A program made the translations under genes and the position numbers. DNA of 64,000 bases from an uncultured Cellvibrionales bacterium. Lineage in GTDB: Bacteria; Pseudomonadota; Gammaproteobacteria; Pseudomonadales; Cellvibrionaceae. Shown piece after piece: positions 10,078 to 39,755 of this stretch. The first letter of the stretch is position 1, and each line of letters starts with the position of its first letter. The DNA lies in NCBI GenBank assembly GCA_913050115.1, contig CAJWZU010000009.1, positions 1 through 64,000 on the forward strand. Reading direction: 5' to 3'. The notes below the pieces were generated by a model. The model was not told the DNA's origin. It was given only the letters and a program-made list of their open reading frames with translations, and searched no databases.

Positions 10078-12507
10078 TTAATGGTACCAAAAGCGGCGAC
10101 GATCTTGACGCATACGAGTGACGACTTGCTGGCCAGACTCGTTCACCGACAACTGAATGGCGCCGAGCTGATCGGTATTAAAGATACGACTGCCGACGCT
10201 TATATACCGCTCGACCACGGCCTTGTTTGGATGCCGGTAACTGTTTTTGTGGCCGTATTGAAAAACTACATTGTGCGGCCTGAGTTGTGTCAAAAAAGCT
10301 TTTGTGGAGGATGTCTTACTGCCGTGGTGTGGTGCCGTCATCCAGTCAACATGGCGTGGCAATATGCCCGAGGACAACAGCCCACGTTCGGCCAGCGCTT
10401 CAATGTCGCCGGTGAGTAACACGCTGATACCATTATGTTCAATAAGCAAGAGACAGGAGCGATTGTTGCGCGCGTTAGCATGCGGGTGGTTACGGCGACC
10501 GCCCTGTTCAGCAAATGTACTTCGAAAAGAAAAAAGGCTGAAATCAGTTTGCCCCCACTGCCAGCGTCTAAGGGTCTCGCAGTTTTGATATCTGTGGGCC
10601 TTAACAGGCATTGATAAAGGCTTTTTATTCCAACTGGCCGGTAGACAATGTCTCGACCCCGATGACAGACATGTGATCAACTCTGCCGGCGCATTAACCT
10701 CTATTACCGCATGGCGCTCAGCCAATTGAGCAGCCCCACCACTATGGTCGGCATCGCCGTGACTTATGATTAACTTGTCGATAGTGCGCGCGCCAACGGA
10801 GTCTAAGTATGGCGATACTATGCCGCTGCCGGCATCAAACTTTTCACTAAAACTGCGACCTGTGTCGTAAACGGCTCGTTTGCCACCCGCTTCTATAACA
10901 ACCGCGGTACCTTGGCCAACATCCATGAACGTAATTCGCAATTGCTCTTTGAGCCCTCTTGGCGAGAACATTAACGGCAATACCAGCAACAAATATCCCA
11001 GACGACGACCGGGAATGCCACGCGGGCTAAGCATTAATGCAACAGCCAACAAACCCACCACAACACTGCCCCAACTCTGTGCGCCGCCATTGATATGTGC
11101 GGTTATGGGCAAACCTTGCAGCCATTCAAGGCCTTGCCACAGCCAGGTGAGCACCCAGTCAGCCAACTGCAAAGGGTAATCTGCATAAGATCTAAGCGAT
11201 AATGGCAGCAGAGCGTGTAACAGAACCGCCAACAATAACAATGGCACTACCAGGGCTGACACCACAGGTATGGCAATCAAATTTGCAACAGGAGCAAGTA
11301 GCGAAGCACGCTGCAAAAGCCAAAGCATTGGTAACAGCAATACAACAAATAAATACCACTGTGATCGGACTGCGGCTATGGCAGTACCGTATGTTCTATT
11401 TGACTTTGTGCTGCGCCCACTAAATATCAACAACAGAGCGACAGCTGCTGCAAACGACAACCAAAAACCTGTGTCCCATATTGCCAGTGGATCGATAACA
11501 ACAACCCCCAGCAGCGCCAAGCTTGCCGCTAGGCGTTTCAGAGCTGGACGGTATAGCCACAGACAAAACTGCACCGTCAGCACCATAATTAAAGCGCGCA
11601 ATGTGGGCGTACTAAAACCTGCCAGGGCAGCATAAGCCGCCGCTAAGGTGGCAGCGCTGATATTGGCAATTAAAAATGTACTGATTCTTGGCCGTATGGC
11701 GTTAGCCATACGGCCAACTAAAGCCCCCAAGAAATAGCCCAACGTGGCGATCAGGCCAATATGTAATCCCGATATAGCCATCAAGTGCACGGTGCCGGTG
11801 CTTTGCAACAGGCGCCAGCTGGCACTACCGATATGGCTTTTGTCGCCGATCATTAATGCCTTGAAGTGGGCAGTGTTGTTTATCTCGGCTCTTTCCAGCC
11901 ACAGTCGAAGGGCTTGTCGGGCTAAAGGGATACTAAATTGGTCGGAGGTATTGCCGACTTTAGTAGCAGATTTAACGGTACCTGAGGCGACAATGCCTTT
12001 TCGTAATAGCCAGACCTGATAATCGAAACCCGCCGGATTGACAAAACCACGGGGTGACTTTAAACGAACCTTTAAGCGCCAGCGCTCACCTACCGCAATG
12101 CGGTCGCTGTGGTCATACCAACTAAGAAGCAACTGAGCATTAGCTGCTAAGCCCCCAAAATCACTCTCGTTAAGCTGAAATAGAAATCGTTGCCGCCGAG
12201 GACTATCGTGACTTACGTCTATAATATGACCATTTAACCACACGTCCTGACGATCATAGGAATCGGGCAATTGCTTGGCTAAACTGATACTATTTTGATG
12301 ATTGGCATAAGTAAAACCAAGCAGTAGGGCGAGTATTAACCCGCACCACTGCCGCAGCCAACGAGCGCGACGAAACAAAAAAAGGCTGATACCAAAGCAA
12401 ATTGCCAAGGCCGCTATGGAAGCTAACAACACACTAATAGGCACTAACCGCGATAAGCTTGCGGCCATCATAATACCCACACTGAAACATACCGCCAGCC
12501 ACTGCAT
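10078..12507 (-). CDS. comEC: DNA internalisation-related competence protein ComEC/Rec2
   Basis: Inner-membrane channel that carries single-stranded DNA into the cytoplasm during natural transformation. The 809-residue protein has an N-terminal DUF4131 region with membrane helices, a central Competence domain of about ten helices (GTVHLMAISGLHIGLIATLG and following), and a C-terminal metallo-beta-lactamase domain with intact H583-GDAD-H588 and a later APHHGSKTS motif. I chose ATG at 12507 because AAGGAG lies six bases upstream; the open frame extends 21 codons further. It suggests potential competence, but type IV pilus genes are not in the window. Confidence 0.94.
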   Translation of the reverse strand: MQWLAVCFSVGIMMAASLSRLVPISVLLASIAALAICFGISLFLFRRARWLRQWCGLILALLLGFTYANHQNSISLAKQLPDSYDRQDVWLNGHIIDVSHDSPRRQRFLFQLNESDFGGLAANAQLLLSWYDHSDRIAVGERWRLKVRLKSPRGFVNPAGFDYQVWLLRKGIVASGTVKSATKVGNTSDQFSIPLARQALRLWLERAEINNTAHFKALMIGDKSHIGSASWRLLQSTGTVHLMAISGLHIGLIATLGYFLGALVGRMANAIRPRISTFLIANISAATLAAAYAALAGFSTPTLRALIMVLTVQFCLWLYRPALKRLAASLALLGVVVIDPLAIWDTGFWLSFAAAVALLLIFSGRSTKSNRTYGTAIAAVRSQWYLFVVLLLPMLWLLQRASLLAPVANLIAIPVVSALVVPLLLLAVLLHALLPLSLRSYADYPLQLADWVLTWLWQGLEWLQGLPITAHINGGAQSWGSVVVGLLAVALMLSPRGIPGRRLGYLLLVLPLMFSPRGLKEQLRITFMDVGQGTAVVIEAGGKRAVYDTGRSFSEKFDAGSGIVSPYLDSVGARTIDKLIISHGDADHSGGAAQLAERHAVIEVNAPAELITCLSSGSRHCLPASWNKKPLSMPVKAHRYQNCETLRRWQWGQTDFSLFSFRSTFAEQGGRRNHPHANARNNRSCLLLIEHNGISVLLTGDIEALAERGLLSSGILPRHVDWMTAPHHGSKTSSTKAFLTQLRPHNVVFQYGHKNSYRHPNKAVVERYISVGSRIFNTDQLGAIQLSVNESGQQVVTRMRQDRRRFWYH

Positions 12508-22838: not shown

Positions 22839-23111
22839 TTAGTTTTTCTTACTGACGTCGTAACCAAGAGCCGCATTGACTTTGTCGTCAAAACTGCTGC
22901 CAACTCTTTCTTCACCGCTTTCTTCTGAGTTGATCTCGTTACATTTGTCTTCGTCGTCGCCACAGATCTCACAAGTGTAGTCGTCTTCTTGCAGTGCCTT
23001 ACCAACGCCGCCACAGGAGCCTTTGAGCGGTTTGTTGCTAAAGATAACGCCAATAGCCATGCCGCCGCACACGGCAAGCATTACGCCTAAAACAATAAAA
23101 AAAGTTGCCAC
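22839..23111 (-). CDS. nqrM: Na+-NQR maturation protein NqrM
   Basis: A 90-residue membrane protein: one N-terminal helix (FFIVLGVMLAVCGGMAIGVIF) and a cytoplasmic domain with the DUF539 cysteines C33 in SCGGVG, then CEICGDD, then a further Cys. NqrM is required, with ApbE, for assembly of the Nqr complex, probably delivering the iron of its membrane cofactor. It follows apbE by 18 bases on the same strand and is the last gene of the nqrA-nqrF-apbE-nqrM run. The start is GTG. Confidence 0.95.
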   Translation of the reverse strand: MATFFIVLGVMLAVCGGMAIGVIFSNKPLKGSCGGVGKALQEDDYTCEICGDDEDKCNEINSEESGEERVGSSFDDKVNAALGYDVSKKN

Positions 23112-23129
23112 AGTTATACCTACCTATGT

Positions 23130-24188
23130 TTAATCAATTGCGCCGAGATAAGGCACAAACAGTGAGTTGTACGATTCAATAAAGCCGGTCTCTGACTTGA
23201 TAATCAAAAACACTGCCAACTGATTTTTGTCCGCAATAGCCAGTGCCTGCTCAGGGCCCGCCACGGTCAATGCGGTAGCCCAGGCGTCGGCCTCAGCCGC
23301 TGTATTGGCGATAACGGTAATAGAGGCGAGCTTATGGTTAACCGGCCAGCCGCTTCGTGGGTCGATGGTGTGCGAGTAACGAACGCCTTGTTGCTCGAAG
23401 TAATTTCGATAGTCACCGGAAGTAGCGACACCGCCGCGGTTAATTTCAATTGTCTGCTGATTGCTCGTATGTAATAAGCTCGGCCGTTCTATGCCCAAGC
23501 GCCAGTCTTTGCGGCGCTTATTCTGACCCTTTACGCGTATTTCGCCACCAATTTCAATCAAGTAGTTTTGGATACCAAGGGTTTCTAGATTGGCGGCAAT
23601 AACATCTACGCCGTAGCCCTTAGCTATAGCGGATAAATCGATAAATAGTTTGCTCTGTTTAGTGGCAGTTTGCTTATTGAGCTGCAGGTTGTGCTGACCA
23701 ATATTTGCCAGTTGCGTGTCGATAGCGCTTTGCTTAGGTTGTTCGACTGAGCTTGCTAACGGGCCAAAACCCCACAGGTTAACAAGGGGCCCAACAGTGA
23801 CATCAAAACTACCAGCGCTGGCAGTATAAATTTGGTCGCTTAGTAATAACACCTCAAACAAAGGCGCAGATAACGCAAACGGAATTTCTACGGGCGCGCG
23901 ATTTAAGCGCATCAGTTCAGAATCGGGGATATAGGTTGACATGATTTGGTTGAAATCTTGCAACCAAATATCTATTTCGGTTTGTATTACAAACTGGGGC
24001 TTAGGCAGACTTTGTTCTGCATCTAGCACCAAAGTAATATTATATTGTGTGCCCATAGTTGGGCCAGAAAAATGATAGCTTTGCAGCGGATCTTCTGAAC
24101 AACCACTGAGGGAGAAACAGGCAAACAAAAACAAGGCCAGCAGAGCTGGCCTTGTTTTTGAGCAAGTGCTTAACAATGCGTTAATCAC
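23130..24188 (-). CDS. apbE: FAD:protein FMN transferase (lipoprotein)
   Basis: Transfers FMN from FAD to Thr residues of NqrB and NqrC. The 352-residue protein has a lipoprotein signal (hydrophobic PALLALFLFACF, lipobox LSGC with Cys30), then YHFSGPTMGTQYNITL, LSAIAKGYGVD and HTIDPRSGWPV, with the metal-binding TAAEADAWATAL near the end. The start is GTG, three bases after the nqrF stop. Unusually, its signal-peptide codons contain a perfect 16-bp terminator-like hairpin, annotated separately. The proximity of its targets nqrB and nqrC supports the function directly. Confidence 0.96.
   Translation of the reverse strand: MINALLSTCSKTRPALLALFLFACFSLSGCSEDPLQSYHFSGPTMGTQYNITLVLDAEQSLPKPQFVIQTEIDIWLQDFNQIMSTYIPDSELMRLNRAPVEIPFALSAPLFEVLLLSDQIYTASAGSFDVTVGPLVNLWGFGPLASSVEQPKQSAIDTQLANIGQHNLQLNKQTATKQSKLFIDLSAIAKGYGVDVIAANLETLGIQNYLIEIGGEIRVKGQNKRRKDWRLGIERPSLLHTSNQQTIEINRGGVATSGDYRNYFEQQGVRYSHTIDPRSGWPVNHKLASITVIANTAAEADAWATALTVAGPEQALAIADKNQLAVFLIIKSETGFIESYNSLFVPYLGAID
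24126..24160 (-). terminator. Terminator-like hairpin inside the start of apbE
   Basis: A perfect 16-bp stem with a 3-base loop: 5' arm 24126-24141, 3' arm 24145-24160. The stem core pairs AAGGCCAGC with GCTGGCCTT and both outer flanks are runs of A or T. On the minus strand it is followed by TTTG. It lies 29-63 nucleotides into apbE, within codons 10-21, just after nqrF. It is coding DNA and a textbook intrinsic terminator shape at the same time. Read-through or attenuation would set the ApbE/Nqr ratio. Confidence 0.7.
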
Positions 24189-24191
24189 TCA

Positions 24192-25415
24192 TTAGCCGCC
24201 GAAATCATCAAGCATGATGTTTTCGTTTTCGACGCCAAGGTCTTTTAACATATTGATCACAGCCTGGTTCATCATTGGCGGACCGCACATGTAGAACTCG
24301 CAATCTTCTGGAGCGGGATGGTCTTTTAGATAATTCTCCAACAGTACGTTGTGAATGAAACCTGTCATACCTTCCCAGTTATCCTCTGGCTGAGGATCCG
24401 ACATAGCTACGTTCCAAGAGAAATTGTCATTATCTTGGGCAAGCTGATCGTAATCTTCTTTATAGAACAACTCTTTAAGAGAGCGTGCGCCGTACCAGAA
24501 AGAGATCTTGCGCTGGCTCTTTAATCGCTTCAACTGATCGAAGATGTGCGAGCGCATCGGAGCCATACCGGCACCACCACCAACAAAGATCATCTCATTT
24601 TCGGTTTCGCGGGCAAAGAACTCACCGAACGGTCCGTAAACTTTCATCTTATCACCTGGCTTCAGATTAAAGACATAAGAAGACATTTGACCGGCGGGTA
24701 TACCTTTAGAGCCTGGAGGTGGCGATGCAATACGAATATTGAACTTCACCACACCCTGCTCTTCTGGGTAGTTGGACATTGAGTAGGCGCGAACCACCTC
24801 TTCATTAACTTTAGATTCGATATTGAAGAAACCAAAACGCTCCCAATCAGCGCGGTATTCGTCTTCGATATGGAAGTCAGAATACTTTACATGATGCGGT
24901 GGACACTCAAGCTGAACGTAACCACCGGCACGGAAATCAACACTCTCGCCCTCTGGCAATTTAAGCGTCAGCTCTTTGATGAAGGTGGCAACGTTCGGGT
25001 TTGACTCAACCGTACATTCCCATTGTTTAACGCCGAAGACCTCTTCGTCAACTTCGATAACCATGTCTTCTTTAACTGGAGTCTGGCACGACAAGCGCCA
25101 TCCTTCAGAAGCTTCGCGCTTTGTAAATGAGCCTTCTTCAGTGGGCAGCATGCCGCCACCGCCTGAGTTTACGACACACTTGCATTGTGCGCAGCTGCCA
25201 CCACCGCCACAAGCCGACGGCAAAAATAAGCCGTTAGCTGCGAGGGTTTGCATCAGTTTGCCACCGGATTCAACGGTGAGAGTTTTCTCGCCATTGATTG
25301 AAATTTTAACATCGCCACTGCTAACCAGTTTGGCGCGGGCACTCAGAATCACAACAACCAGTGCAAGCACGATCACGGTGAACATGACGACCCCTAGTAC
25401 GATAGTAACGTCCAT
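24192..25415 (-). CDS. nqrF: Na+-translocating NADH:quinone reductase subunit F
   Basis: The NADH-oxidising entry subunit of the Nqr sodium pump. The 407-residue protein has one N-terminal helix, a plant-type 2Fe-2S domain ([16 protein letters not shown] and a later Cys in LSCQTP), an FAD domain (RAYSMSNYP) and an NADH domain ([23 protein letters not shown]). Length is typical. It starts ATG, 19 bases after nqrE. Electrons pass from FAD through the iron-sulfur centre to NqrD/E, then to NqrC and NqrB. Confidence 0.98.
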
Positions 25416-25434: not shown

Positions 25435-26043
25435 TTATAGGTCGATGCCACCGAAGGACATAAAGCCCAACGACATCAAACCAACAGTGATAAAAGTAAT
25501 GCCAAGACCCTGCAGACCGTGAGGAATGTCAGAGTACTTTAACTTCTCGCGAATACCGGCAAGCGCGGTAATTGCCAGCGCCCAACCAACACCAGAACCG
25601 ACCGCAAAAACGGTAGACTCGGCCATATCGTAATCACGCTCAACCATGAACAGTACCGCACCCATAATGGCACAGTTCACTGTAATCAATGGTAAAAATA
25701 CGCCCAGTGCGTTGTAAAGCGCTGGCATATATTTATCGAGTACCATCTCCATAATTTGAACCGCAGCGGCAATAATACCAATGAAGGTAATCAGGCCAAG
25801 AAAACTCAAATCGACCTCGGGATAACCGGCCCAAGCCAGTGCGCCGTCGGCGAGAAGGTTACTGTAGACAAGGTAGTTCAAGGGTACCGTGATAGCCAAA
25901 ACCACGATAACCGCGATGCCAAGACCAATAGCAGCCTCAACTTTCTTGGATATTGCGATAAAGGTACACATGCCCAAGAAGAACGCCAGCGCCATGTTTT
26001 CGATAAAGATCGAACGCACAAACAAGCTTAAATAATGTTCCAT
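25435..26043 (-). CDS. nqrE: Na+-translocating NADH:quinone reductase subunit E
   Basis: A 202-residue inner-membrane subunit with six helices, starting [20 protein letters not shown]. The cysteine in FLGMCTF and one in NCAIMGAV match those proposed to bind the iron shared with NqrD. It is homologous to NqrD and to RnfA. It lies 3 bases downstream of nqrD. Confidence 0.97.
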
Positions 26044-26046
26044 AAT

Positions 26047-26700
26047 TTAAGCCTCCTTAACGGTGTTGGGGCAAATTTTAAATTCTGCAACTTCAACCTG
26101 TTTCTTATCATAAGTGCGCATGGCCCAAATGATCAAACCGATTAGAAAGAATGCGCTCGGTGGCAACAGCAATAGACCGTTAGGTACATACCAGCCGCCA
26201 TCGGTAACTAGAGGCAGAATCTCGTAACCCATCAGCTTACCGGAACCAAACAGTTCACGAATTACCGCGAGGACAATTAGCATTGCGCTGTAACCAAAAC
26301 CGTTGCCAATGCCGTCGAGAAAACTTGCACCTGGCGGATTCTTCATAGCAAAGGCTTCGGCGCGGCCCATCACAATACAGTTGGTGATAATCAAACCAAC
26401 AAATACTGAAAGTTGCTTAGAGATCTCAAAGGCATAGGCCTTCAGAACCTGGTCAACAACAATTACCAATGAGGCAATGATGGTCATCTGGGCAATAATT
26501 CGAACGCTGTTTGGAATCTGATTACGCACCAGAGATACAAACAGGTTGGAAAATGCCGTCACAACAGTGAGTGCAATACACATTACCAGGGTCACTTTCA
26601 GCGAGCTGGTAACAGCCAATGCCGAGCAGATACCCAGAATTTGCAAGCCAATTGGGTTATTGGTCAGTACTGGAGAAAACAGTAGCTCTTTAATCTTCAT
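26047..26700 (-). CDS. nqrD: Na+-translocating NADH:quinone reductase subunit D
   Basis: A 217-residue membrane subunit of six helices, with [20 protein letters not shown] near the start and [13 protein letters not shown] in the middle; each holds a Cys that pairs with NqrE residues around the membrane iron centre. It is inverted in topology relative to NqrE. The gene starts two bases after nqrC. Confidence 0.97.
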
Positions 26701-26702
26701 TA

Positions 26703-27440
26703 TTAAGCATCTCCATCTTTGAGGTTAGACAAAAATGGGCCATAGCCGCTATCGCCCATCCAGAACTTAATTAGGTTGTCGACACCTTTGCTGGTCAAAG
26801 TAGCACCAGAGAGGCCGTCAACTTTATTGATATCGCCAACAGGCGCAGGGCCTTTGGTGATAGTAATCGCAACAGAGCCATCATCAGCGTAGACCTCTTT
26901 GCCAACCCAGAGTGATTTCCACTTTGGGTTGTCAACCTCACCGCCTAAGCCCGGTGTTTCACCGTGCTGATAAAAACCCAAACCGACAATAGTATTGGTG
27001 TCAGCTTCTAGAGCCATAAAGCCATAAAGTGTTGACCAAAGACCATAGCCTTTAACGGGTAGGATTATTTTTTCCAGTTTACCAGCATTTTCAACAAGAT
27101 AAACTTTGCTGTAGTCAGCGCGGGTGCCAATTTTTGCAATATCCAGTTCGCCAATCAGCTTAGTTTCTTGAGCCAACTGTTCAGGGGTAACGTCTAAAAC
27201 ATACTTGTCTATGGCGAAATCAACCGTTTTAGTGGTGATAAGCTTAAACTGCTCTTCAACGTCAGCGCCCTCTTTTAGCATGCCTGCTGCCGCTAAAATA
27301 TTGCGCTTAAAATCGAGCGCTTTATTAGTTTCCTGAATTGGCTTAAGCACAACCGCTGCGGTAGATACAATTACCGAACAGACAAAGCACAACGACAAGA
27401 TGACGATAAGTGTTTTTGATGTAGTCTCTTTATTAGACAC
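26703..27440 (-). CDS. nqrC: Na+-translocating NADH:quinone reductase subunit C
   Basis: A periplasm-facing FMN subunit of 245 residues with one N-terminal helix ([20 protein letters not shown]). The FMN attachment motif SGATLTS lies near the C-terminus ([12 protein letters not shown]); FMN joins the Thr and is placed there by ApbE. I chose GTG at 27440 (VSNKETTSK) because GGAGG lies seven bases upstream and homologues start there. It overlaps the end of nqrB by eight bases; a start 12 codons earlier is open but has less support. Confidence 0.96.
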
Positions 27441-28626
27441 GCGCCAACCTCCGCTTGATGTTTCCTTGAACCACAAAATGGTCGATCAGAGGGGAGAATA
27501 AATTGGCAAACAAGATAGCCAGCATCATACCTTCTGGGTACGCAGGGTTAACCACGCGAATCAACACAACCATGACGCCAATCAACGCACCGTACCAGAG
27601 CCTGCCGATATTCGTCATAGAAGCCGACACTGGGTCAGTCGCCATAAAGATCATACCAAAAGCAAAGCCACCCAAAACCATATGCCAGTACCAAGGTACG
27701 GCAAACATATAATTGGTGTCAGAACCGATCATGTTAAACAGGAACGATGTCGCCATCATACCGGCCATAACCCCGATCACAATTCGCACCGACGCAATCT
27801 TGGCAATAAGAAGAACGGCACCACCGATAAAGATTGCAAGGGTTGAAGTCTCACCAATACAGCCTTGCATCTTACCGAGAAAAGCATCCATCCAAGTCAT
27901 CGTGCTGGTTAAACCAGCCAGACCTTCAGTGTTGGCAATAGACAGCGCAGTAGCGCCAGTAAAACCATCCAAAGCAGTCCAAACAGTGTCGCCTGAAAGC
28001 TCCGCTGGGTAGGCGAAGAACATAAAAGCACGACCCGTTAGCGCTGGGTTGAGGAAGTTTTTACCCGTACCACCGAAAACTTCTTTGCCAATAATTACGC
28101 CAAAACTGATGCCAAGGGCAACCATCCATAAAGGTACATCGGGCGGGCAAATGAGCGCAAACAGCACCGAAGTTACAAAGAAACCTTCGTTTACTTCGTG
28201 ACCACGAACACTAGCAAAGATAACTTCCCAAAACCCGCCGACCGCAAAGGTCACGAAATAGATAGGCAGGAAGTAAGCCGCGCCATGGATAAAGCAATCC
28301 AAGAAACTGTCCGGATTATAACCGGCGAACAGCCCAATAAAGCCACCGCGCCAGCCGTCAAGTGCAACCATGCCCATTTCAACCATGCCGCTATTGGCTT
28401 GGAAGCCAACGTTGTACATGCCATAAAACATAGCTGGAAAAGTACACATCCAGACGGTAATCATCATACGTTTCAGGTCGATGCCGTCGCGCACGTGTGC
28501 GGTAGTTTTAGTTACACTAGATGGACGGAATAAACCGGTATCAATGGCTTCGTAAAGCGCATAGAACTTTTCCCATTTACCGCCTTTGTGAAAATGCGGC
28601 TCGATGCTATCGAGGAATTTACGCAT
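27433..28626 (-). CDS. nqrB: Na+-translocating NADH:quinone reductase subunit B
   Basis: The main ion-conducting subunit: 397 residues, about ten membrane helices, with the second covalent FMN at the Thr in [10 protein letters not shown], recognised by ApbE as DGxTGAT. It binds riboflavin and the ubiquinone site in this family. The start [20 protein letters not shown] is as in homologues. It is three bases after nqrA. Confidence 0.98.
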
Positions 28627-28629
28627 GTC

Positions 28630-29973
28630 TTATCCCTCCTTTTCAATACGGGTGAGGTTATCGCGCAGGATTGGACCATATTCATATTTGCCGGGGCAAA
28701 CAAAAGAACACAGTGCCAGATCTTCTTCATCTAACTCTAAAGCGCCCAGCTTTTGGGCAACATCGGTGTCGCCAACAATAAGCGCACGTAGCAATTGAGT
28801 GGGAAGAATATCCAGTGGCATGATGCGCTCGTAGTTGCCATTAGGCACCATGGCGCGTTCACTACCCATTGTGGTGGTGGTGAAATCAAACTCTTTCTTG
28901 CCTAGGAGCTTTGAAACATACAAGCCCATAATCGAGAAATAATTAAAGCCAGGTCGCAAGTAGTGCAACAGCGGACGGTCATTACCTTCCAATAATACAG
29001 AAACTTGATTGTGATAGCGACCGAGGTAGGCATAAGCGTCAGCGGCAATACGGCCACCAAACACGGAACCTGAAACAATTCGATTGACACCAGACTTCAA
29101 TTTTCCTGCGGTTAGCTCAGTCAAGTTGGCGCCAAGTTGGCTGCGGATCAACAGAGGTTTATCTACCTGCGGTCCAGCCAGAGCAACAACGCGCGCTGTG
29201 GGTAGTTTGCCGGTGACAAACAGTTGCGCGATGGCAATAACATCTTGATACCCAAGGGTCCAGACAGTTTTATTTGCGCTCACAGGCTCGATATTGTGTA
29301 TATGAGTACCGACATTACCTGCAGGATGAACGCCACCAAACTCTCTAACCACGACACGAGAGTCAGTGCCGGCGGGAATTTTTGCGCCGGGCGCCTTACA
29401 CAAGTAAACATTGCCTTCGGTCAATTTGCTCAGCAAGGTCAGACCATTACTAAAATCATCGGCGGCTTCGCCAATAATCAGCTCTGGATTTGCAGCCAGT
29501 GGATTGGTATCCATTGCTGTCACAAAAATTGCGGCTGGGGTGGAGTCGACGGCAGGCACCTTACTATAAGGACGGGTGCGTAACGCAGTCCAGAGGCCCG
29601 ACTCGATCAAGTTGCTGGCAACTTGATCGCGACTGAGACCGCTGAATTTGTCGGCACTGTACTGTTCGAAGCTTATCGCTTCATCGCCTTCGACATTGAT
29701 AACAACAGACTGAAATACACGGCGTGCGCCGCGATTAATAGCCGTTACAGTACCAGCTGCTGGAGCTGTGAACTTAACGCCTTCAGTCTTCTTGTCGCTG
29801 AAAAGTAGTTGTCCGAGTTTAACCTTGTCACCTACCTGTACAGACATTGTTGGCTTCATACCGTGGTAATCGGCGCCAATAACTGCAACAGATTGAGACT
29901 TGGGACCATCTATGATGGTCTGCTCGGGAGAGCCGGATATAGGTAAATCCAGACCTCGACGAATCTTTATCAT
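28630..29973 (-). CDS. nqrA: Na+-translocating NADH:quinone reductase subunit A
   Basis: First gene of the nqr operon; a 447-residue cytoplasmic subunit without a prosthetic group that contributes to quinone binding. It starts [14 protein letters not shown] and shows the NqrA segments [28 protein letters not shown] and, at the end, [20 protein letters not shown] chose ATG 29973; a GTG six codons upstream gives only MIRQRR in addition. Its promoter must lie within 29974-30352, shared with the divergent mfd. Confidence 0.97.
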
Positions 29974-30352
29974 ACGTCTCTGCCTAATCACTCGTTCGAT
30001 AAAGTGCGTTAGCTCTCTAAAGCACCCCTAAAAAACGAGTCACTGACCTGTTTTTAAGAAATACCACGGGCTAACTGCGTGTAATTTTTTTGATTAGCTC
30101 AATATCCACACTATTCTGACCAATTAGTAACCCAATTGATTAAGAACAAACACAGCTACAGCTAAACCGGCGCAATTATAGAGTTGGTGGGCGCTTCTGA
30201 CCAGACTCAAGGGCAGTATTTCTGCTTTACTGGCAAAAAAAGTACAATAAGGCCTAACTCTTGGTCACTATTTTACCCAGTGTAGGCACAGCACAACTAA
30301 AGCCAGTTACAATGTGGTTCATTTTAAATTCCAGCAGCCACGCACCCGCCCT
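29974..30352. other. Divergent promoter region between nqrA and mfd
   Basis: About 380 bases serving the nqr operon (minus) and mfd (plus). TACAAT at 30243-30248 follows TTCTGC by 17 bases and might be a weak mfd promoter. I see no firm operator for nqr. Confidence 0.4.
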
Positions 30353-39176: not shown

Positions 39177-39680
39177 CTAGCACTCGATGTTATTACTGCG
39201 CTGGCGCACAATCATCTCATTCATTGATTCATAGGCAGCACGCAAACCCTCAAGCTTAGGCTCGGGCAGAAAAATTCTAGTCGACGCTATCATCGATGCA
39301 TCCAATGGCGCAGGGGCAGCGAATAAGTTTAGCGCCACACTACTCTTGAAATACCCCTCAATGGCATTTAGCCAGCTACCGCCTTGCGCCGCCAAACACT
39401 CAAGCTCCTGGACGTCAGCGGCATAAACTCCTTCAATGGCAATAGCCTTTGACAGCGCGGAAACCGACCCCACCGATCCTGACTTCCTCAGAAGTGTATT
39501 GGCAAGTTCATTCAAGTAGGCCTGCAACGACAAGTTCAGCGCCATACAAACAGCCTGTATCTGCGCACGTGACTTAACCGGCGAACGCTTTATGGCTTGC
39601 TGGAGCTCCGCAAGGAGATCCAAGTGATAACGACAAAAAGCCATCTGCTCGTTGCAGATAGCGACAAAGGTATTACTCAT
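39177..39680 (-). CDS. DUF6586-like conserved protein
   Basis: A 167-residue protein rich in helix (AICNEQMAFCRYHLDLLAELQ, ALNLSLQAYLNELANTLL), resembling the DUF6586 protein found directly upstream of topA in Pseudomonas. No catalytic motif or signal is seen. The start is ATG 39680; an upstream alternative 21 codons earlier has no support. It lies 75 bases after topA on the same strand, and 67 bases upstream of the next small gene. Confidence 0.7.
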   Translation of the reverse strand: MSNTFVAICNEQMAFCRYHLDLLAELQQAIKRSPVKSRAQIQAVCMALNLSLQAYLNELANTLLRKSGSVGSVSALSKAIAIEGVYAADVQELECLAAQGGSWLNAIEGYFKSSVALNLFAAPAPLDASMIASTRIFLPEPKLEGLRAAYESMNEMIVRQRSNNIEC

Positions 39681-39755
39681 AAATTGCTCAGGGTATTGGC
39701 TAGAAGATAGGGAATACTGATCGGCGCCTATGAACGACGCCAATCAGTCACCTAC

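Follow-up and report, generated by a model that had tools for sequence, protein, structure and literature searches.

The peptide-leader attenuators, of which trp is one, are a described type of terminator whose outcome can depend on a nearby ribosome. Internal intrinsic terminators are also described, in the accessible part of a report on cellulolytic Clostridia, as setting the stoichiometry of ABC importer operons through partial read-through (PMC9045158). The influence of ribosomes on terminators has been studied with E. coli constructs, and according to the available sections of that work (Li et al. 2015, PMC4824070), the ending ribosome leaves a terminator undisturbed and nearly fully functional if it lies more than about 27-30 nt beyond a stop codon, and a synthetic terminator placed 30 bp after an AUG (construct W48) lost only about 10%. 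As for the locus considered here, the available text of PMC12052999 states that ApbE is needed for the maturation of NQR, in which FMN is attached to NqrB and NqrC.

Here we describe a hairpin that lies just past nqrF and inside the beginning of apbE in DNA of an uncultured Cellvibrionales bacterium (the window, meaning the whole stretch of 64,000 nucleotides analysed), and we compare it with the same junction in other bacteria. We consider it probable that this hairpin is an intrinsic (Rho-independent) partial terminator of the nqrA-F operon, overlapped by the start of apbE, which holds the transcription of apbE and nqrM below that of nqrA-F.

Results

All genes concerned lie on the minus strand. 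The gene apbE, encoding an FMN transferase (Pfam PF02424, E 3.9e-87), occupies 23130-24188 with a GTG start at 24188, and nqrF, recognised by its Pfam domains and ending in DDFGG-stop, lies directly upstream at 24192-25415, with 3 nt from its stop codon to the GTG. Further upstream, nqrA (identified by Pfam) is accompanied by what we take to be nqrB to nqrE, named from sequence and gene order (25435-29991 together). The gene for the NQR maturation factor, nqrM (22839-23111; Pfam PF04400, E 2.8e-7), is located 3' of apbE and hence also behind the hairpin, which the preliminary description had not included.

That description had reported a perfect stem of 16 bp with a 3-base loop, 29-63 nt inside apbE, and both arm complementarity and RNA folding agree with it. 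The arms at 24126-24141 and 24145-24160 (minus strand) are 16 nt each, 100% complementary and separated by 3 nt, which read TCT on the mRNA strand. Between the end of the nqrF stop codon (24192) and the hairpin lie 31 nt. Its GC-rich core of 10 bp (24132-24154) has a computed energy of -17.3 kcal/mol and is directly followed on the mRNA strand by a U-tract (TTTTTGTTT, 24123-24131), where 3' ends would be predicted at about 24122-24127, and the A-tract CAAAAA (24155-24160) pairs with this U-tract. The stem-loop is more stable than expected by chance, since the 71-nt RNA fold reaches -29.4 kcal/mol (z -6.2), a value equalled by 0 of 200 shuffles, and the longest perfect stem found in random DNA was 14 bp (15 Markov-1 windows of 64 kb, loops of 3-8). 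By a terminator-like score of the d'Aubenton-Carafa type, with at most one mismatch and no bulges allowed, the hairpin obtained 52.3, whereas 500 random 160-nt stretches of the same genome had a median of -46.6, with 8 above zero and 2 at 52 or more. A generic terminator scanner run on the window did not list the hairpin; it looks for a T-run that follows the stem, whereas the U-tract of this hairpin pairs within it. With Rfam 15, six matches with E values up to 1 were obtained in the region 23900-24400, all of them under the gathering score.

The same bases encode the hydrophobic leader that had been noted before, and more exactly they fall within the code of a lipoprotein signal peptide. Counted from the GTG, the hairpin corresponds to codons 10-21 of 352, the leader reads ...SKTRPALLALFLFACFSLSGC, and the lipobox Cys, recognised by eye, is codon 30 (codons 1-30, 24099-24188; the TTG at 24176 offers another start). 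The A-tract supplies Lys of the n-region. If the true start of apbE were downstream of the hairpin, the element would be an ordinary intergenic terminator and its coding overlap an annotation artefact. In favour of this, the GTG here lacks a Shine-Dalgarno-like match, such a match of at least 4 nt accompanies only 32 of the 96 best start candidates, and 53 of 100 relatives also contain an in-frame ATG or GTG in or after the hairpin. However, all of 100 have an in-frame ATG, GTG or TTG before the hairpin, and 100 of the 108 loci that have 10 pairs or more share one codon phase over about 50% divergence of the protein. As judged from its sequence, removal of these codons would take from the ApbE of the window its positive n-region and a large part of its hydrophobic core. 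A downstream start is therefore very unlikely in our view.

For the comparison within the family, 144 genomes were searched by protein, apbE was matched at E 1e-60 or better in 119, and the junction DNA was fetched for all 119. We take this family to be Cellvibrionaceae, since three loci known to come from Cellvibrionaceae have the same sequence as loci in the set. The relatives compared belong to other genera of the family, the nearest ApbE being about 50% identical. Among 20 listed of the 25 genomes that had no close apbE match at this threshold, 19 belong to genus g2, and these genomes may lack an nqr-linked apbE. All 118 nqrF-apbE junctions, from 28 genera, were counted; one further locus (L025) escaped the motif used and carries the hairpin as well. 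Allowing one mismatch and G-U pairs, 108 of 118 loci have a best leader hairpin with 10 pairs or more, and stems in the relatives reach up to 23 pairs. When each leader was compared with 300 synonymous recodings of itself, 102 of 118 loci outscored every recoding. In 100 of the 108 loci the centre of symmetry falls in the same codon phase, and 98 of these outscore every recoding; three of the eight off-phase loci (L020, L032 and L202) have hairpins elsewhere in the stretch. By genus, 23 of 28 have at least one locus that beats all recodings, 17 have only such loci and 5 have none. The terminator-like score, computed ungapped, is positive in 91 of 119 family loci. When 27 of the 28 loci at or below zero were rescanned with a bulge-tolerant finder, which had no matched random control, a junction hairpin was seen in 26, and 24 of these carry 6 or more T in the 14 nt at the hairpin end; the 28th locus is L025. 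One locus, L018, had no hairpin by any of the methods used. The preliminary description had named loss of the stem in close relatives as the observation that would speak against its reading; instead, the family and many other families have retained the hairpin, with substitutions that compensate for one another and alter the protein.

The codons are chosen to suit the hairpin. At the hairpin, Arg is AGG in 32 of 36 cases, compared with 2.4% elsewhere in the same genes, Gly is GGG in 54 of 54 (11% elsewhere), Ala is GCC in 79 of 80 (32%) and Phe is TTT in 80 of 82 (36%). The bias extends into the U-tract beyond the pairing, and at aligned codon 15, which is outside the 16-pair structure, the third base is T in 86 of 96 hairpins against 26.8 expected. 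This observation bears on a post-transcriptional role, in which the stem-loop would be an RNA-processing or 3'-protecting element (a site of RNase III cutting or a barrier to exonucleases) that stabilises nqrA-F and leaves apbE-nqrM unstable, on the model of operons with selective RNA processing and stabilisation. The length and perfection of the stem would suit such an element, and stem-loops between operon genes are reported in such roles in the accessible parts of two papers (PMC8219983, PMC10311766). It is nevertheless an unlikely explanation, because the U-tract is kept by synonymous choice even outside the 16-pair structure, and because the form of the hairpin matches the intergenic hairpins of the same genome, many of which share its order of A-tract, GC stem and T-tract.

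The strand on which the element acts was considered separately, given the near symmetry of the stem. Third positions on the 5' side are strongly enriched in A, a feature that a sense terminator by itself would not call for, and the direction therefore rests on the comparison of sense and antisense scores. In the window, the antisense strand is also terminator-like (38.9 vs 52.3 for sense), and across the family the antisense score is positive in 56 of 118 loci. Together with the 5' enrichment of A, this would suit a terminator that works in both directions or antisense, or a palindrome bound by a protein, in each case unconnected with the nqr operon. In contrast, the sense score exceeds the antisense score in 89 of 118 loci, the sequence varies while the pairing is kept, unlike a protein site, and the hairpin is tied to adjacency with nqrF (see below), which makes a role outside the operon hardly plausible.

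Covariation was analysed in 96 distinct aligned segments of 55 nt. In the 16-pair structure, 91.8% of the cells are paired and both sides have changed in 13 of 16 pairs. The covariation score reaches 0.441, compared with 0.229 for shuffled and 0.09-0.18 for slid structures; these counts are inflated by preselection for a hairpin in the common phase and by the many similar sequences of genus g4, which make up about half of the set, whereas the synonymous test is independent of that selection. At distances 5, 6, 8, 9, 10, 12 and 13 from the centre, pairing (G-U counted) is found in 96 of 96 despite differing letters. The coupled swaps change the protein on both arms, with Arg at position 6 together with Ser at position 12 in 30 of 96 segments, Gly with Leu in 50 and other combinations in 16; these paired residues change together because their bases must pair. 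The 4-base core on the 5' side has changed at least 15 times on the NqrF/ApbE tree. A tree test with independent pairs gave 1 to 3 starred pairs at positions 5, 6, 9, 10 and 12, too few for significance, and at the same five positions the partner base, where different, had changed in the same way in every random pairing shown, which we do not count as proof. In this test the 3' base is invariant at position 15 and hardly differs at position 16, and the outer stem therefore varies mostly on its 5' side. The peptide thus follows the hairpin across evolution, which goes beyond the preliminary description.

Outside the family, 80 loci of the order were sampled across families in a non-random manner, and 78 of them had an apbE match. 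The terminator-like score was positive in 48 of 66 loci in which apbE adjoins nqrF and in 0 of 12 without an nqrF end upstream in the fetched DNA (Fisher p 2e-6), although some positives outside the family are doubtful because very stable GC stems can exceed zero despite a poor U-tract, as in the Halomonadaceae loci. Among the 66 adjacent loci, the hairpin is inside the apbE ORF in 38 (23 families) and between the genes in 10, and 18 have none by score. In a further set of 80 named loci, of which six are shared with the order or family sets and three are Cellvibrionaceae, the score was positive in 67 of 78 adjacent and in 0 of 2 non-adjacent loci. The hairpin is inside the ORF in Alteromonadaceae (3/3), Oceanospirillaceae (4/4 adjacent), Porticoccaceae (3/3), Spongiibacteraceae (2/2), Pasteurellaceae (2/3) and, with a poor U-tract, Halomonadaceae (3/3), and it is intergenic in Vibrionaceae (9/9), family f34 (4/4) and, with many weak U-tracts, Morganellaceae (29/32). 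By score, 7 of 10 Yersiniaceae have no terminator, and given these and the 18 order loci the hairpin is not indispensable to the nqr operon. Since positive scores occur with nqrF adjacency and not without it, the element goes with nqrF and not with ApbE. The two other apbE homologues of the genome studied here also score far below zero.

A hairpin belonging to ApbE signal peptides as such was considered as well, and it is rejected by the apbE genes without nqrF upstream, none of which scored positive. The same genes bear on the possibility that the hairpin mainly lowers or times apbE translation, through structure near the start, the rare AGG and GGG codons and slow elongation during export, instead of acting on transcription. 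The hairpin does begin as early as codon 10 here, and AGG and GGG are rare elsewhere in these genes. However, such an effect needs no conserved U-tract, the Vibrionaceae hairpin is outside the gene, and no terminator-like hairpin was seen in apbE without nqrF upstream, either in the order and named sets or in the two paralogues, so that we regard an action mainly on translation as decidedly improbable.

Codon phase differs between families, and the overlap may therefore have arisen, or shifted, more than once. By hand count, 28 of the 38 in-ORF order loci have the register in which codon base 1 pairs with base 1 and base 2 with base 3, for which chance would give one third; this may reflect shared descent or easier evolution. 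In Morganellaceae (L045-L112), a recurrent nqrF-apbE palindrome, AGCGCCCACA...TGTGGGCGCT, often has a weak T-tract and resembles a dispersed repeat more than a terminator, and the intergenic palindromes of this family (AGCGCCCACA...) may be repeats instead of terminators.

In the same genome, 464 kb of 2.72 Mb (the window and 20 further stretches) were sampled for other hairpins. Of 36 perfect hairpins with at least 10 bp and at least 3 GC pairs, 28 are intergenic, 2 lie across an ORF edge and 6 are in ORFs. The terminator-like score is positive within the first 130 nt of 4 of 371 ORFs of at least 90 codons, with apbE at the top (52.3) and the next at 30.5, a DUF6586 ORF (window 39177-39743) whose hairpin lies at about nt 82, counted from a TTG that may be too early as a start. 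The window also contains a perfect hairpin of 23 bp outside ORFs (1549-1597), which has A- and T-tracts and resembles a strong ordinary terminator, and a 13-bp perfect hairpin without a T-tract deep in a long ORF (11688-11717). Elsewhere, an Ion_trans_2 ion-channel ORF of relative G125 (L252:14831-15952) has a terminator-like hairpin (score 52.4) about 66-85 nt past the first possible start, encoding KVRRLLASLF, which is perhaps a second terminator-coded N-terminus or the result of a wrongly placed start. In a thymidylate synthase gene (L238:14159-14998), the stretch coding for GDRTGTGT and its neighbours form a hairpin followed by TTTTT (score 17.3), which may be a by-product of the conserved motif.

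Discussion

The hairpin is conserved and covarying, its codons are chosen to suit it, its U-tract is biased, and it depends on nqrF. These features fit a partial terminator at the end of nqrF, and from them we infer that transcription terminates here, that it does so in part, and that this sets the ratio of nqrA-F to apbE-nqrM. RNA polymerase moving past nqrF would form the GC-rich hairpin and then the U-tract, where a share of the polymerases would stop and leave an nqrA-F message. The remaining polymerases would continue into apbE and nqrM, whose products are assembly factors presumably needed in lower amounts than the pump subunits. Read-through is expected because ApbE is required for NQR maturation. 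The preliminary description had proposed an attenuator at which most transcripts stop after nqrF, keeping ApbE low. The U-tract, the dependence on nqrF and the intergenic version in Vibrionaceae favour its terminator reading, while the stopping itself, the share of read-through and the low level of ApbE stand as predictions.

From the nqrF stop codon to the GC core the median distance is 40 nt, with at least 27 nt in 90 of 96 segments, and if the published E. coli constructs are a guide, a ribosome finishing nqrF would usually be too far upstream, and one starting apbE usually too late, to melt the hairpin. The terminated messages would be non-stop for apbE and could thus load tmRNA, as proposed for the E. 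coli constructs and for arfA and brfA in the parts of those reports available.

What selection appears to maintain is a terminator after nqrF, through which the signal peptide of apbE seems to be written in many lineages. Such dual coding is possible because A-tracts are read as Lys and U-tracts as Phe or Leu; judging from the genetic code, the codons of the A-tract would provide the n-region and those of the U-tract the hydrophobic core, so that the terminator could be translated as a signal peptide. A more far-reaching proposal, which we offer tentatively and with some doubt, is that a dual-coded element, at once operon terminator and signal-peptide code of the downstream gene, is spread across many gammaproteobacterial families and, more boldly, might serve as a translation-responsive gate, where the ribosome on its way from nqrF into apbE would decide on read-through into the maturation genes, a non-stop signal-peptide fragment would go to tmRNA, and assembly factors would be matched to pump synthesis. 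Any regulation going past a fixed ratio is speculation.

If the partial terminator is as we propose, several points follow. First, the signal peptide of a protein appears to have been shaped by an RNA signal. Second, the arrangement suggests a way in which operons might adjust assembly factors relative to abundant complexes and need no additional space. Third, terminator predictions inside ORFs are not always false. NQR, a respiratory sodium pump, can be a concrete and testable system for the interplay of terminators and ribosomes at gene starts.

In the open-licence literature, with subscription papers mostly outside this scope, we found no description of an nqrF-apbE terminator or of a terminator-coded signal peptide. 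The Neisseria papers that name nqr and a terminator gave no link between the two in their accessible text, and a P. aeruginosa 3'-end paper mentions neither nqr nor apbE in its main text.

The element lies between co-directional genes of one functional unit (nqrF, apbE and nqrM), as an internal operon terminator would. As far as the accessible part of the report goes, the terminators of the clostridial ABC importers resemble it as terminator-like stem-loops between co-transcribed genes, with longer GC stems and partly paired U-tracts, but they are intergenic, whereas the apbE hairpin is inside the next gene and translated, and the protein varies with it (PMC9045158). In the available descriptions of brfA of B. 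subtilis (PMC6881298) and arfA of E. coli (PMC3989581), a terminator or terminator-like stem also lies inside an ORF, and a terminated apbE message would likewise lack the stop codon of its ORF and engage tmRNA. In those genes, however, the hairpin is located towards the 3' end of the ORF and what is produced is the truncated protein, while in apbE it occupies codons 10-21 of 352 and the product would be the upstream genes. Construct W48, in the sections available, is similar in that translation costs a terminator within the first 100 bp of a second ORF little of its efficiency, but it is artificial, and neither a natural conserved example nor a signal peptide is mentioned there (PMC4824070). 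With peptide-leader attenuators such as pyrBI, as described in the same source (PMC4824070), it may share a terminator outcome that depends on a ribosome close behind the polymerase, with the difference that the translated element here is the N-terminus of a structural gene. Internal operon terminators are already known, and the probable one at apbE, which doubles as signal-peptide code, appears to be a new variant.
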